A DNA stretch of 64,000 nucleotides, from contig NZ_CP046444.1 of assembly GCF_014083945.1 (NCBI RefSeq), positions 2,294,001 to 2,358,000 on the forward strand. Reading direction: 5' to 3'. Of the stretch, positions 5,156 to 21,455 are shown in pieces. A program made the translations under genes and the position numbers. The notes below the pieces were generated by a model. It searched no databases and was not told where the DNA came from. It was given only the letters and a program-made list of their open reading frames with translations. The stretch's first letter is position 1; each line of letters opens with the position of its first letter. The stretch is from Granulicella sp. 5B5. Its GTDB lineage: Bacteria; Acidobacteriota; Terriglobia; Terriglobales; Acidobacteriaceae.

Positions 5156-5566
5156 ATGAGCGATGCGAAGGCGGGTTCGATTCAGGTAGTGCGTCCCGAA
5201 GAACAGAGCGCGGGGACGGCGCAGACGTCGGGGTCGCAGCGGATGGCGGCGGTTTCGAGGGCGCAAGGTATCGAGACTGGGATGTGGGCGGGGACGTTTC
5301 TCGTTGAACCGGGCGCGAAGACGGGCATCCATCACCACGGAGAGCAGGAGACGGTGGTGTATGTGCTGGAGGGCGAGGCGCTGGTGAAGTGGGGTGAGCG
5401 CGGCGGGGAGTCCGCGACGGTGCGCGCGGGGGACTTTGTGCATGTGCCGGCGTGGGTGGTGCACCAGGAGATCAATCCGTCGGCAACGGAGGCATTCCGG
5501 TGGGTGGTGGTGCGGAGCACTCCGGAGCCGATTGTGGTGAACCTGCCGGATGCGGTGTGGGAGTAA
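5156..5566 (+). CDS. Small single-domain cupin protein
   Basis: A 136-residue protein with a beta-barrel cupin fold. The first motif is readable as VEPGAKTGIHHHGEQETVVYVLEGEA and the second as AGDFVHVPAWVVHQEIN. The His cluster HHH, the Glu two residues on and the later His are the usual metal ligands. The substrate cannot be told; it could be an enzyme or a small-molecule sensor. ATG 5156 is chosen because residues upstream in the same frame do not look like cupin sequence. It converges on the Uma2 gene with a palindrome between them. Confidence 0.75.
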   Translation: MSDAKAGSIQVVRPEEQSAGTAQTSGSQRMAAVSRAQGIETGMWAGTFLVEPGAKTGIHHHGEQETVVYVLEGEALVKWGERGGESATVRAGDFVHVPAWVVHQEINPSATEAFRWVVVRSTPEPIVVNLPDAVWE

Positions 5567-5569
5567 AGA

Positions 5570-5589
5570 CCCGAGGCTGAAGCCTCGGG
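5570..5589. repeat. Short palindromic repeat (CCCGAGGCT-GA-AGCCTCGGG)
   Basis: A perfect nine-bp stem with a GA loop, followed by GGTACC-like sequence. A closely similar palindrome with the same GA loop is at 11036-11055 after msrA. It sits between convergent genes and could also act as a terminator, although there is no T run. Confidence 0.6.
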
Positions 5590-5621
5590 GTACCTGGTTT
5601 GTGGGAGCGACGCGGAGAAGA

Positions 5622-7008: not shown

Positions 7009-8172
7009 CTACTCGGTTTCCTGCTTGGTGCCTTCGGGGTGGGTGGACTTGTCGGAGATGAGGTCTTCGGGGGTTTCGTGGAGCGTGTGGGTGGGCTCGG
7101 GGACGGCGTTGAGCTCGTCGAGGGCGGGGGAGCCGCCGGACTCCGGGGCGGGTTCATCTGCAGGTCTCTCCACTCCGTCCGCAGAAGGCGCGGACTCCGA
7201 TTGAGATGACAGTTCTATATCCGAAGCCTGGTGCTCTTCCATCTGGATCTCCTCCTGGACAGCCTCGTTGAGCTCGCCGGCCATGCGCTCGAACTCTTCG
7301 ATGCTGGGAAGCTCGTTGATGTCTTTGAGCCCGAAGCGAAGGAGGAAGTCCTTGGTGGTCTTATACAGGATGGGGCGGCCGATGACCTGCTTGCGGCCGG
7401 CGGTGGCGATGAGCTTGCGGGTGAGCAGCGAGCCGAGGGTGCCGGCGGACTCGACGCCGCGGATCTCGGAGACCTCGGGTGCGGTGATGGGCTGCTTGTA
7501 GGCGACGACGGCGAGAGTTTCGAGCGCCTGGAGGGAGAGCTTTAGCGGCGGCTTGAGGGACTTGACGAAGCCGCGGACGGCGTCGTGGTACTCGGGCTTG
7601 GTGGCGAAGCGGAAGCCGGAGGCGACTTCCTTGATCTCAAAGCCGCGGTCAGCGACGGCGTAGTCGGCGATGAGTTGGTCGAGGAGCGAACGGAAGTAGT
7701 CGCGGAGCTTGCGGGCGCGGAGTTTTTCGGCGGCGGCGAGGGACTTAGCGTCGGGGGCCGGGGTGTCAGTCGCGGAGGCTTCGTCGCCGGGTTCAACTGC
7801 AGGTCTCTCCGCTGCGTCCGCAGAAGGCGCGGACTCCGGTCGAGATGACACATCTGTGGTGGACTCAGGGGAAGTTTCGGTGGTGTCTGGAGAGTCTTCG
7901 GTAGTGTCGAGGATCTCGGCGTTCAAGGCGTCGGGATCGGCGGGGCCTTCGTCTTCGGCGGCGGTCTCTTCGTCAGACTCCGCGGCGGTCTCCTCTTCGA
8001 TCTCCGCGGCTTCGTTTTGCGCGAAGGACTCGGTGTCGAGCGAGAGCTGGTTGGAGGCGAGCGTGTCCAGCTCGGCCTGGCCCTCTTCACCGAGCAGGCC
8101 GATGAGTTGCGCAAGCGTGACAGGTTCTTCGGAGGCGTAGATGACGGCTTCTATTTTGGCTTTGAGGCTCAT
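7009..8172 (-). CDS. scpB: Segregation and condensation protein B with acidic insertions
   Basis: ScpB binds ScpA and SMC in the chromosome condensin. The conserved winged-helix parts are present: MSLKAKIEAVIYASEEPVTLAQL at the start, then LIADYAVADRGFEIKEVASGFRF, LSLQALETLAVVAYKQPIT and EIRGVESAGTLGSLLTRKLI, ending at DFLLRFGLKDINELPSIEEFE. At 387 residues it is about twice the usual length of roughly 200. The extra sequence is an acidic, Ser/Glu/Asp-rich block at about residues 40-145 between the first and second parts, plus an acidic tail after about 300. Two 62-bp palindromic repeats lie inside these blocks (residues 108-128 and 321-341). No scpA is next to it. Confidence 0.88.
   Translation of the reverse strand: MSLKAKIEAVIYASEEPVTLAQLIGLLGEEGQAELDTLASNQLSLDTESFAQNEAAEIEEETAAESDEETAAEDEGPADPDALNAEILDTTEDSPDTTETSPESTTDVSSRPESAPSADAAERPAVEPGDEASATDTPAPDAKSLAAAEKLRARKLRDYFRSLLDQLIADYAVADRGFEIKEVASGFRFATKPEYHDAVRGFVKSLKPPLKLSLQALETLAVVAYKQPITAPEVSEIRGVESAGTLGSLLTRKLIATAGRKQVIGRPILYKTTKDFLLRFGLKDINELPSIEEFERMAGELNEAVQEEIQMEEHQASDIELSSQSESAPSADGVERPADEPAPESGGSPALDELNAVPEPTHTLHETPEDLISDKSTHPEGTKQETE
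7150..7211 (-). repeat. 62-bp palindromic repeat R1 inside scpB (C-terminal copy)
   Basis: Runs from GGGTTCATCTGCAGG to GAGATGACA on the plus strand and matches 7789-7850 at 57 of 62 positions. It contains the inverted pair GTCCGC-GCGGAC. In scpB it is read as SSQSESAPSADGVERPADEP, in frame with no stop. Confidence 0.85.
7789..7850 (-). repeat. 62-bp palindromic repeat R1 inside scpB (central copy)
   Basis: Second scpB copy, in the same orientation and reading frame as 7150-7211 and read as SSRPESAPSADAAERPAVEP. Related right-end sequence (GGTCGAGATGAC) recurs between genes at about 10275-10287, and a diverged copy lies in the nucleotide-sugar dehydrogenase gene at about 20895-20957. Confidence 0.85.
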
Positions 8173-9982: not shown

Positions 9983-10433
9983 AGCTGACGATTCGCCTTC
10001 GAAACACTAGGGGGATTGAAGTGCTGAACGCGACCAGAGTAGAGCGGCAGTTGTTGCTGCTGTGTGAATGGGCTGTAATTTTTGGGGAGGAAGGGCCGAG
10101 AGAGGGCAAAGTGGATGCGGGTGCGGAGGTCGGCGAGGTATTAGTCGCGGGTGAGTGCGGGGGTGCGGGAGACGAGGCGCGCCTCAAGCGGAAGCTGGCG
10201 GCTGTCGGTGAGGGTGACGAGTGCGCCGGGCGGGAGGTCGGCGGGAGTGCCTTCGCGATGAAGCTGTCATGCTTCGGTCGAGATGACGGGTTTTGTGGGT
10301 GGGCGGTGAAACATATCTCCTGTTCTACCTCGCTCCGGGGAATGACAAACTGAAAGGCAACAGCAACAGCAAACGCAGATTCCCTTCGGGAATGACAAAA
10401 CCAAGAGGGCCAAAACAAGATGCGAGGTGATGG
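9983..10433. other. Repeat-rich intergenic stretch with a possible gene remnant
   Basis: No intact gene is visible. It holds a partial R1 repeat (GGTCGAGATGAC at about 10276-10287), a GAAGC-TGTCAT-GCTTC hairpin at 10260-10275, and two GGGAATGACAAA-type units (about 10337-10350 and 10377-10400). On the minus strand at about 10138-10255 a short open stretch reads LPPGALVTLTDSRQLPLEAR and ends RTPALTRD-stop. It looks like the C-terminal end of a real protein cut off upstream by the repeat. Confidence 0.5.
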
Positions 10434-20072: not shown

Positions 20073-21455
20073 TCAGCAGCGGATGATGTTGGGGGCGGTG
20101 AGGCCGCGGGTGGCGTTGCGGGTGTCGATGAAGAGCTTGCTGGCGGCGACAAGAGCGGGGATGTCGTAGGCGCTGTGGTCGGTGGCGAGCAGGACACAGT
20201 CGAAGGTGGGGACTTCGGTGAGCGGCGTGGAGGCGGTCTGCAAGGCGTAGTGGCGCCCGATGCCGACCTGCGGGAAGTAGGGGTCGTTGTAGGCGACGTG
20301 CGCGCCAGCGTGCTGCAGCAGGCCGAAGAGCGTGAGCGCGGGGGACTCGCGCAGGTCGTCGACGTCGCGCTTGTAGGCGATGCCGAGGATGAGGACGCGT
20401 TTGCCTTCGAGGGAGCCTAGTGCCTTGCGGATGGTTTCGACGACGAAGGCGGGCATGGACTCGTTCACTTCGCCGGCGAGCTCGATAAAGCGCGTGGGCT
20501 GATTGAACTGCTTGGCGCGCCAACTGAGGTAGAAAGGGTCGACGGGGATGCAGTGGCCGCCGATGCCGGGGCCGGGATAGAAGGGTTGAAAGCCGAAGGG
20601 CTTGGTGGAGGCCGCGTCGATGACCTCCCAGATGTCGATGCCCATGGCGAGGCAGAGCTGCTTGAGCTCATTGACGAGGGCGATGTTGACGCTGCGGTAG
20701 ATGTTCTCGAGCAGCTTGGTCATCTCGGCTGCGTCGGGTGAGGACATGGAGACGGTGCGGTCGAAGATGGCGCCGTAGAGCGCAGCGGCGGCTGCGGTGG
20801 CGGTGGGGCTGGTGCCGCCGACTACCTTGGGAATGGCGTGGCGTGGCGTTGTGGTGTTGCCGGGGTCTTCGCGCTCGGGGCTGAAGGCGAGAAGGCAGTG
20901 GGTAGACAGTGGTGCGGAGACACTAGAGTCTCCGGCCGAGATGACAGCTTCTTTTGCCGTCTCGCGGTGCACCGGTGTTGGGCCGAGACGTTCGAGGATG
21001 GGTAGGACGAGCTCGGTGGTGGTGCCGGGATAGGTGGTGGATTCGAGGACGATGAGCTGGCCGGGATGCGTGTGCGGTGCGACGGCTTCGACGGTGCTCT
21101 GCACGTAGCTGAGGTCGGGCTCATGCTCGTGCTCCGTGCCCACGCCGAGCGGTGTGGGCACGCAGATGAGGACTGCGTCGCAGTCCTGGAGGAGAGCGAA
21201 GTCCGTGGTGGCGGTGAAGCCTGCGGCGCGCGCGGCAGCGATGTCGGCTGATGGGATACGGTGGATGTAGCTGATGCCGTCGTTGAGGCTGCCGACCTTC
21301 TTCTGGTCGATGTCGAAGCCGGTGACGTGGAAGCCGGCTTCGCTGAAGAGCAGCGTGAGCGGCAGGCCCACATAGCCGAGGCCGATGATGGCGATGTGTG
21401 TCTGGCGCGATTCGACGCGCTCGATCCATTCAGCCAGAGTATGTAGACGTGCCAT
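20073..21455 (-). CDS. Nucleotide-sugar (UDP-hexosamine/hexose) 6-dehydrogenase
   Basis: Two-step NAD-dependent oxidation of a UDP-sugar to the uronic acid, for surface polysaccharide. N-terminal Rossmann motif IAIIGLGYVGLPLTLLFSEAGF; ICVPTPLG; FSPEREDPGN; KLLENIYRSVNIALVNELKQL; the catalytic-cysteine block PGPGIGGHCIPVDPFYLSWRAK; and the C-terminal domain from RVLILGIAYKRDVDDLRESPAL. The pattern fits the WecC/WbpA/TviB group better than Ugd. ATG 21455 is chosen over a TTG four codons upstream that is too close to GGAG. Residues about 167-187 (AKEAVISAGDSSVSAPLSTH) are encoded by an R1-like repeat just before the conserved LAFSPERED. It is followed upstream by an epimerase gene. Confidence 0.9.
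   Translation of the reverse strand: MARLHTLAEWIERVESRQTHIAIIGLGYVGLPLTLLFSEAGFHVTGFDIDQKKVGSLNDGISYIHRIPSADIAAARAAGFTATTDFALLQDCDAVLICVPTPLGVGTEHEHEPDLSYVQSTVEAVAPHTHPGQLIVLESTTYPGTTTELVLPILERLGPTPVHRETAKEAVISAGDSSVSAPLSTHCLLAFSPEREDPGNTTTPRHAIPKVVGGTSPTATAAAAALYGAIFDRTVSMSSPDAAEMTKLLENIYRSVNIALVNELKQLCLAMGIDIWEVIDAASTKPFGFQPFYPGPGIGGHCIPVDPFYLSWRAKQFNQPTRFIELAGEVNESMPAFVVETIRKALGSLEGKRVLILGIAYKRDVDDLRESPALTLFGLLQHAGAHVAYNDPYFPQVGIGRHYALQTASTPLTEVPTFDCVLLATDHSAYDIPALVAASKLFIDTRNATRGLTAPNIIRC
20895..20957 (-). repeat. R1-like palindromic repeat inside the nucleotide-sugar dehydrogenase gene
   Basis: On the minus strand it starts GCTGTCATCTCGGCCGGAGA, matching the left end of the scpB repeats, then has a near-palindromic GGAGAC-TCTAGT-GTCTCC core. 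It is in frame with the dehydrogenase, but in a different frame of the repeat than in scpB (VISAG here, SSRP there). Confidence 0.7.

Follow-up and report, generated by a model that had tools for sequence, protein, structure and literature searches.

The window, that is, the whole stretch of 64,000 nucleotides from Granulicella sp. 5B5 that was analysed, carries on its minus strand an open reading frame of 387 amino acids, in which residues 166-297 are covered by the ScpB model TIGR00281 (NCBIfam). This gene contains, in frame, two copies of a palindromic 62-bp unit (for whose family the name ‘fam1’ is used throughout), and additional palindromes are found elsewhere in the window:

7009..8172, minus strand: scpB, host of two in-frame fam1 copies (from the open reading frame list and the TIGR00281 match)
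7789..7866, minus strand: acidic-linker copy of fam1 in ScpB; its sense sequence is TGTCATCTCGACC...GGAGAGACCTGC with inner stem GTCCGC/GCGGAC, read as VSSRPESAPSADAAERPA; the end at 7866 is set by a weak upstream consensus
7150..7227, minus strand: C-terminal-tail copy of fam1 in ScpB; its left end is altered (TCAATC for TCGACC), and it is read as LSSQSESAPSADGVERPA; the end at 7227 is likewise set by a weak upstream consensus
10256..10289, minus strand: truncated fam1 copy, comprising the left end, the first half of the inner stem and the loop (GTCATCTCGACCGAAGCATGACAGCTTCATCG); the right half is missing
10338..10398, minus strand: pair of short TTGTCATTCCC palindromes that belong to a further family (fam5), on the same strand as the fam1 copies
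5565..5594, minus strand: palindrome GGTACCCCGAGGCTTCAGCCTCGGGTCTTT of T33 type; palindromes of this type flank a Y1 transposase gene at genome position 643350
20913..20946, minus strand: possible degenerate fam1 copy (TGTCATCTCGGCCGGAGAC...GTCTCCGC)

A recount of the bases, together with a reading of the open reading frame, bears out what the initial annotation had described at this locus. The segments 7150-7211 and 7789-7850 are identical at 57 of 62 bases (the ungapped pair 7149-7216/7788-7855 shows 90% identity across 68 bases), they share one orientation, and their offset of 639 bases is divisible by 3, such that the minus-strand scpB frame runs through both, giving LSSQSESAPSADGVERPADEP and VSSRPESAPSADAAERPAVEP. 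The inverted GTCCGC/GCGGAC core that had been pointed out is indeed the inner stem of both copies, and the related end that had been noticed near 10276 belongs to the truncated minus-strand copy listed above. The two inserts (approximately residues 108-125 and 321-338, one in the acidic linker and the other in the C-terminal tail) both fall outside the TIGR00281 match, which agrees with their earlier placement in acidic insertions and not in the winged-helix core. In a low-confidence AlphaFold model of the protein (32 aligned sequences, mean pLDDT 58.6), residues 64-141 and 307-369 are predicted to be without secondary structure.

A dispersed palindrome family and its in-frame copies

A search of the entire genome (a single contig of 3.93 Mb) with the pattern TCATCTCGACC-N(8-38)-GAGAGACC returned 111 exact copies, as compared to none for the same pattern read backwards, and thus the repeat cannot be attributed to chance; the half pattern GGTCTCTCCRCTNC occurs 120 times (versus 0 for its control), and a BLAST search with the 62-bp unit gave 45 rows. 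The prospect that the unit might prove unique to scpB, which had been raised together with the initial annotation, is thereby removed. Detailed examination was carried out on 119 copies, identified with a looser pattern in 366.8 kb of DNA from this genome (the window together with 86 stretches that were picked to surround copies). The choice followed the first 100 places listed, with the genome beyond approximately 3.11 Mb under-sampled.

When the scpB reading direction is taken as sense, the consensus is approximately CCCACCAAAGATG-TGTCATCTCGACCGRAG-[stem and loop]-GYAGYGGAGAGACC-TGCGTCT, with ends that are partly imposed by the search pattern. The ends are fixed; the inner stem is variable in sequence yet self-complementary. 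An anchored stem search found an inner stem of at least 5 pairs in 76 of the 119 copies (shuffled mean 8.3, maximum 15), the commonest length being 7 pairs (48/119), and those copies with at least 4 pairs represent 22 stem types, among them GTCCGC/GCGGAC, GCATCG/GATGC, GCCAAA/TTGGC and GCAGGA/CCTGC. Predicted folds vary between single copies, and the fold energies of six of these were unremarkable (z from -1.5 to 0.4); the structural case rests on complementarity across stem types in the anchored stem search, and a MAFFT alignment of the copies misplaces some of the stems. With its dispersed copies and complementary inner stems fam1 is a palindromic repeat spread through the genome, and its sites share nothing in their flanks beyond roughly 16 bases on one side and 7 on the other.

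Gene calls at these loci, made with a codon-usage caller that was written for this analysis and uses a three-class model, place 34 of the 119 copies inside 28 predicted proteins. A family match (in some cases below the curated cut-off) was obtained for 26 of the 28, accounting for 32 copies; the two in-gene copies without such a match (genome positions 1049822 and 3053165) are excluded from the counts of 32/119 and 27/29 and included in the length test described below. The hosts of a single copy are DnaX, UvrA, MetG, a RecB/AddA-like helicase, RlmN, UbiE, AlaRS, RimO, a tricorn-like S41 protein, a B12-dependent ribonucleotide reductase, a DNA polymerase IV-like protein, a lipase maturation factor, an asparaginase-2 family protein, RNase HI, EutC, EutB, TrpE, TrmFO, Der and YoaA/DinG, and two copies each are found in a 23S rRNA methyltransferase, ScpB, PEP carboxylase, PolA, an Lhr-type helicase and a LamG-domain protein. 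By our own count, approximately 10 of the 26 have roles in DNA replication or repair, in nucleotide reduction or in segregation; several others modify tRNA or rRNA.

The in-frame count that the initial annotation had called for thus amounts to 32 of 119 copies in 26 family-matched genes, of which 29 lie in sense and three in antisense orientation. The sense copies are read overwhelmingly in one frame: 27 of the 29 encode VSSRPE or a near variant (most of these peptides finishing in VERPA or AERPA), two encode VIST, and the third frame is not used (binomial probability against one third, 2.5e-11). All three antisense copies begin with GLS and finish with SGRDD. The length between the matched ends is divisible by 3 in 28 of 34 in-gene copies versus 22 of 85 intergenic copies (Fisher 2.1e-8). 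Because approximately 85% of the window is coding according to the gene calls, the proportion found in genes (32/119) is far below that expected of random insertion, and presumably most fam1 insertions into genes have been lost.

Three inserts were placed on a structure or an alignment: that in TrmFO (residues 225-258) separates residues 217 and 218 of chain 3g5q, which are adjacent there, that in AlaRS lies between residues 273 and 278 of chain 3hxu, and that in EutB (residues 292-314) between two well-aligned halves. The sites in TrmFO, AlaRS, EutB and ScpB are all loops, linkers or tails, and the favoured reading frame yields a polar peptide.

Orthologous loops and the distribution of palindromes in relatives

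None of 101 other ScpB open reading frames (75 from named contigs and 26 from genomes of the genus, with overlapping species) carries fam1, the loose pattern matches in eight of them being judged by eye to be due to chance, and to that extent orthologs with the same peptides by ordinary codon divergence, which would have spoken against the initial reading, were not seen. This is qualified by one species, whose scpB (loci L117 and L035, the latter named Granulicella paludicola) contains, in the same linker and the same frame, a segment without the hairpin that matches fam1 at 34 of 52 positions, against a median of 26 and a next best value of 31 among the 31 ScpB open reading frames compared. 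This may be the eroded remnant of an older copy, or a chance resemblance within a linker rich in S, P and E; if the former, the insertion in ScpB is perhaps older than the lineage of the present strain. Taken with the 111 copies and the 26 host genes, the absence of fam1 from those orthologs supports the original reading of the repeat as a mobile-like palindrome that adds peptide in frame, its movement being an inference.

The same loops hold other palindromes in other species. In the nearest relative (G025) and in a second genome of the genus (G009), the ScpB linker contains a different palindrome, TGTCATCCTGAGCGAAG...GAAGGACC (‘fam2’), which is read in frame as VILSE...KDPD. Among the aligned TrmFO loci of the genus, the loop that harbors fam1 in the present strain contains a third palindrome, GAPSSPTASSSAKVGS (‘fam4’), in G025 (L256) and fam2 in G011 (L258); it is longer, with no palindrome family assigned, in L262, L267 and L271, and short in the remainder. 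On these alignments the ScpB linker (L115, L120) and the TrmFO loop (L256, L258) look as if they had been hit repeatedly by different palindromes.

The fam1 pattern occurs in 17 of 28 genomes of the genus (0 to 111 copies each). At the level of the class it is present in 35 of 399 genomes, which represent eight genera and without exception belong to the family of the present strain. The fam2 family is likewise found in 17 of the 28 genus genomes, with 182 copies in G003. Many of the listed fam2 copies in that genome form inverted pairs approximately 165 bases apart, and many listed fam1 copies in G003 and G004 are also arranged in inverted pairs, such that both orientations are present there by construction. 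These fam1 and fam2 pairs show two different inner stems at a fixed spacing, unlike the single copies of the present genome.

Orientation relative to GC skew, and the Y1 transposases

The sense strand of fam1 is the locally C-rich strand at all 119 of the examined copies, as measured on flanks of up to 1.4 kb on each side with the element itself excluded. The 82 plus-strand copies all lie in negative skew (mean -0.281) and the 37 minus-strand copies all in positive skew (mean 0.265); the addition of three copies from other samples brings the agreement to 122 of 122. The same holds in relatives, without exception among 15 copies in G009 and 16 distinct ones in G025 (20 rows), a test that covers 31 of the 74 exact-pattern copies listed. 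As a control, the majority orientation was averaged over 112 nine-letter words that contain as many G as C and occur at least 15 times; the mean was 0.73, and those words that reach 1.0 look like pieces of palindrome families.

The direction of transcription was considered as the cause and rejected: copies that are antisense to both neighbours (11) or that lie between divergent (9) or convergent (17) genes all follow the skew, as do the four antisense copies inside predicted genes. The skew at third codon positions tracks that of the remaining segment, with r = 0.81 for placed samples and 0.91 for element loci, and therefore the skew belongs to the physical strand. Mean absolute skew was 0.26 versus 0.12 in the 40 six-kb samples used for comparison (L215-L254), a biased contrast in that those samples were placed in the gaps between known copies and not at random. 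In this genome, local GC skew is very strong, at approximately 0.25-0.35 for element loci, its sign changes many times along the chromosome, and it is near 0 in stretches of low GC content; a typical skew is given as approximately 2.5% in the accessible part of one published account (PMC8941118).

The only DnaA match in the genome (2,139,838-2,140,323) lies between two stretches, at 2,134,597 and 2,159,453, across which the skew passes from minus to plus. Such a switch is what is expected at an origin, and the orientation of fam1 thus probably follows replication. Since the sign of the skew changes so often, the position of dnaA at a single switch is weak when taken on its own. The orientation relative to the nominal replication arms agrees for 91 of 119 copies (Fisher 2e-9, with copies treated as independent) and disagrees for 28. 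A fixed orientation relative to the replicating strand, which is a feature of Y1-type elements, is accordingly seen for all copies by skew and for most by arm, with the link from skew to replication drawn from dnaA; the patchwork of skew along the chromosome is assumed to reflect inversions that carried elements and skew together.

Three genes for Y1 transposases are present in this genome (at 643350, 1095740 and 1955409), two of which are flanked by palindromes of families other than fam1. Palindromes of further families also lie in frame in proteins that host fam1. The first family, T32 (GGAGGGAGCAG-NGGCCTTCAGGCC ... GGGGCTTTAGCCCC), matches the palindromes that flank the Y1 gene at 1,955,409 and is found in frame in MetG, Lhr and the LamG protein, and partly so in the asparaginase-2 protein; the second, T33 (GGTACCCCGA...TCGGGTCTCA), matches those that flank the Y1 gene at 643,350 and occurs in frame in the LamG protein. 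Copies of fam4 are in frame in the DinB-like protein and TrpE (the loci with in-frame T32, T33 or fam4 palindromes being L153, L200, L207, L186, L178 and L197). These families nearly share the orientation rule: the sense strand is C-rich for 18 of 20 copies of T33 (the two that deviate adjoin the transposase gene, in DNA with a skew close to 0), 17 of 23 of T32 under a loose pattern (of those that deviate, one adjoins the transposase gene and five look chance-like by eye), 9 of 9 of fam4, 22 of 23 of fam5, and 6 of 6 of fam2, for which the loose pattern includes non-palindromic matches. A rule common to families that have a resident Y1 gene and to families that lack one suggests a single kind of insertion linked to the replication fork.

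A transposase gene beside fam1 was sought as a rule and rejected. Across the present genome and 27 others of the genus, 84 Y1 matches were found in 26 of the 28 genomes, and among the 32 of these loci that were read, only one has a fam1 copy within 400 bp (L319, G003:C1:1507467-1507808, 213 bp from a Y1 transposase gene). The lack of a Y1 gene regularly flanked by fam1 implies that the enzyme, if there is one, acts in trans or has been lost.

Known palindromic systems and a proposed route of insertion

The closest parallels to fam1 are found among the Rickettsia palindromic elements (RPEs) and the REP sequences. The RPEs, as described in the available portions of PMC10969869 and PMC3733652, are dispersed palindromes that lie in frame in unrelated genes, encode a conserved peptide and have no known transposase, all of which is also seen for fam1 (32 copies in 26 unrelated genes, with 27 of the 29 sense copies in one frame). 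The likeness is one of features. In contrast to the RPEs, fam1 has a seemingly different sequence, a host from a free-living acidobacterial group and roughly 36-54 bases between its matched ends (as opposed to approximately 150 bp in the accessible descriptions of RPEs). What is recorded here for fam1 also includes an orientation that follows GC skew and several families that hit the same loops across species.

With the CGTC-tagged REPs treated in the accessible part of PMC3733652, fam1 shares a high copy number, intragenic copies and the usual lack of a flanking transposase; it may also share their tag, in that one of its ends carries TGTC, a CGTC variant, with AT next to it. The base that precedes GTC in the 119 copies is T in 108 and C in seven, with the GTC itself forming part of the search pattern, and this GTC is paired in some predicted folds and not in others. 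The stems differ: the same source describes 8-9 bp with a loop of 4-5 for CGTC-tagged REPs, whereas fam1 consists of an outer arm plus a variable inner stem. According to that portion of the source, the CGTC-tagged REPs, which are reported without a transposase, include RPE-4 and RPE-6, coding palindromes and intragenic REPs were already known, including in replication and repair genes, and the spread of REP-like palindromes that lack a dedicated transposase is left open; Acidobacteria are not among the five phyla that it lists for CGTC repeats. The REP/REPIN elements mobilised by RAYT enzymes, with their GTAG motif, are further removed, since fam1 has no GTAG at its consensus ends and does not as a rule flank a RAYT-type gene. 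The TIRYT/TIR systems and RAYT-linked REPs do have a likeness in this genome, in the Y1 genes flanked by T32 and T33, which are also dispersed and in frame; TIRYT-type transposases have been named in Acidobacteria, including G. mallensis, in the part of the literature available. In the open-licence literature that we searched, neither acidobacterial coding palindromes nor a skew lock of REPs was the subject of any paper listed, and nothing relevant was found on the fam1 repeat sequences.

The explanation that we favour, with a probability of roughly 0.6, is that fam1 is a non-autonomous REP/RPE-like element. It would move as a single-stranded hairpin, which a Y1 (HUH, RAYT-like) transposase acting in trans would join into the single-stranded lagging-strand template at the replication fork; transposases of the IS200/IS605 group are described, in the available part of PMC6006769, as excising from and inserting into that template as single strands. 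The insertion step, and not later selection, would then fix the orientation of the element relative to replication, and later inversions would move element and skew as one. Should the C-rich strand be the lagging strand, as the position of dnaA suggests, fam1 on the lagging-strand template would read GCAGGTCTCTCC...GGTCGAGATGACA. Those insertions that fell inside genes would survive if the frame was kept and if the added peptide, polar and unstructured, came to lie in a loop, linker or tail.

An alternative that retains this mobility places the origin of the orientation in selection: reverse copies would have been lost, either because the hairpin harms replication in that direction or because the element serves as a polar signal on the chromosome. 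The in-gene copies have clearly been filtered by selection, the lock is total in the genome studied, and the stretches that bear elements are strongly skewed, all of which would fit. However, selection would need to act equally on unrelated families and on those that flank Y1 genes, which nearly share the rule, and would have to leave no exception even among copies that look recent; we consider it unlikely, though the next most probable reading.

Distinctly less probable is a transposase-free spread of fam1, in which hairpins would prompt template switching, repair or gene conversion as the DNA is replicated. Such an account would explain why no dedicated enzyme was found beside fam1, a strand lock would suit any fork-linked process, and the two copies in scpB do possess the same hairpin; nevertheless, the copies lie at many unrelated sites with only the short shared flanks described above, and resident Y1 genes have palindromes that behave similarly. 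A simple internal duplication in scpB, unrelated to mobile DNA, is very improbable as the full explanation given the 111 exact copies, the other in-frame hosts, the absence from orthologs and the fact that the copy at 7799-7850 resembles its scpB partner less (0.917) than it does four copies outside scpB (0.938), although the inner hairpin common to both scpB copies is absent from the other 117 of the 119, such that one of the two is perhaps a local duplicate of the other.

Within the literature searched, and as far as those searches show, three aspects of these observations are new: the scale of the phenomenon in an acidobacterium, the occurrence of different families in the same loops across species, and the exceptionless orientation lock of fam1. 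Peptide insertion in frame, for which Rickettsia is the best-known example, is here encountered in a member of a free-living group of soil bacteria, and it affects core enzymes, among them alanyl-tRNA synthetase, PEP carboxylase and DNA polymerase I. The orientation rule, which none of the 119 fam1 copies breaks and to which the families beside Y1 genes come close, points to insertion of single strands at the fork. More tentatively, and with a confidence that falls a little short of even, we propose that several unrelated palindrome families, with or without a resident Y1 gene, are inserted into the chromosomes of Granulicella and its family by one shared single-strand machinery, which would be linked to the fork and would fix their orientation, and which would, as a side effect, repeatedly thread new polar peptides into the same surface loops of core proteins in different species. 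If so, that machinery would be a recurrent generator of protein insertions in the core proteins of free-living bacteria.
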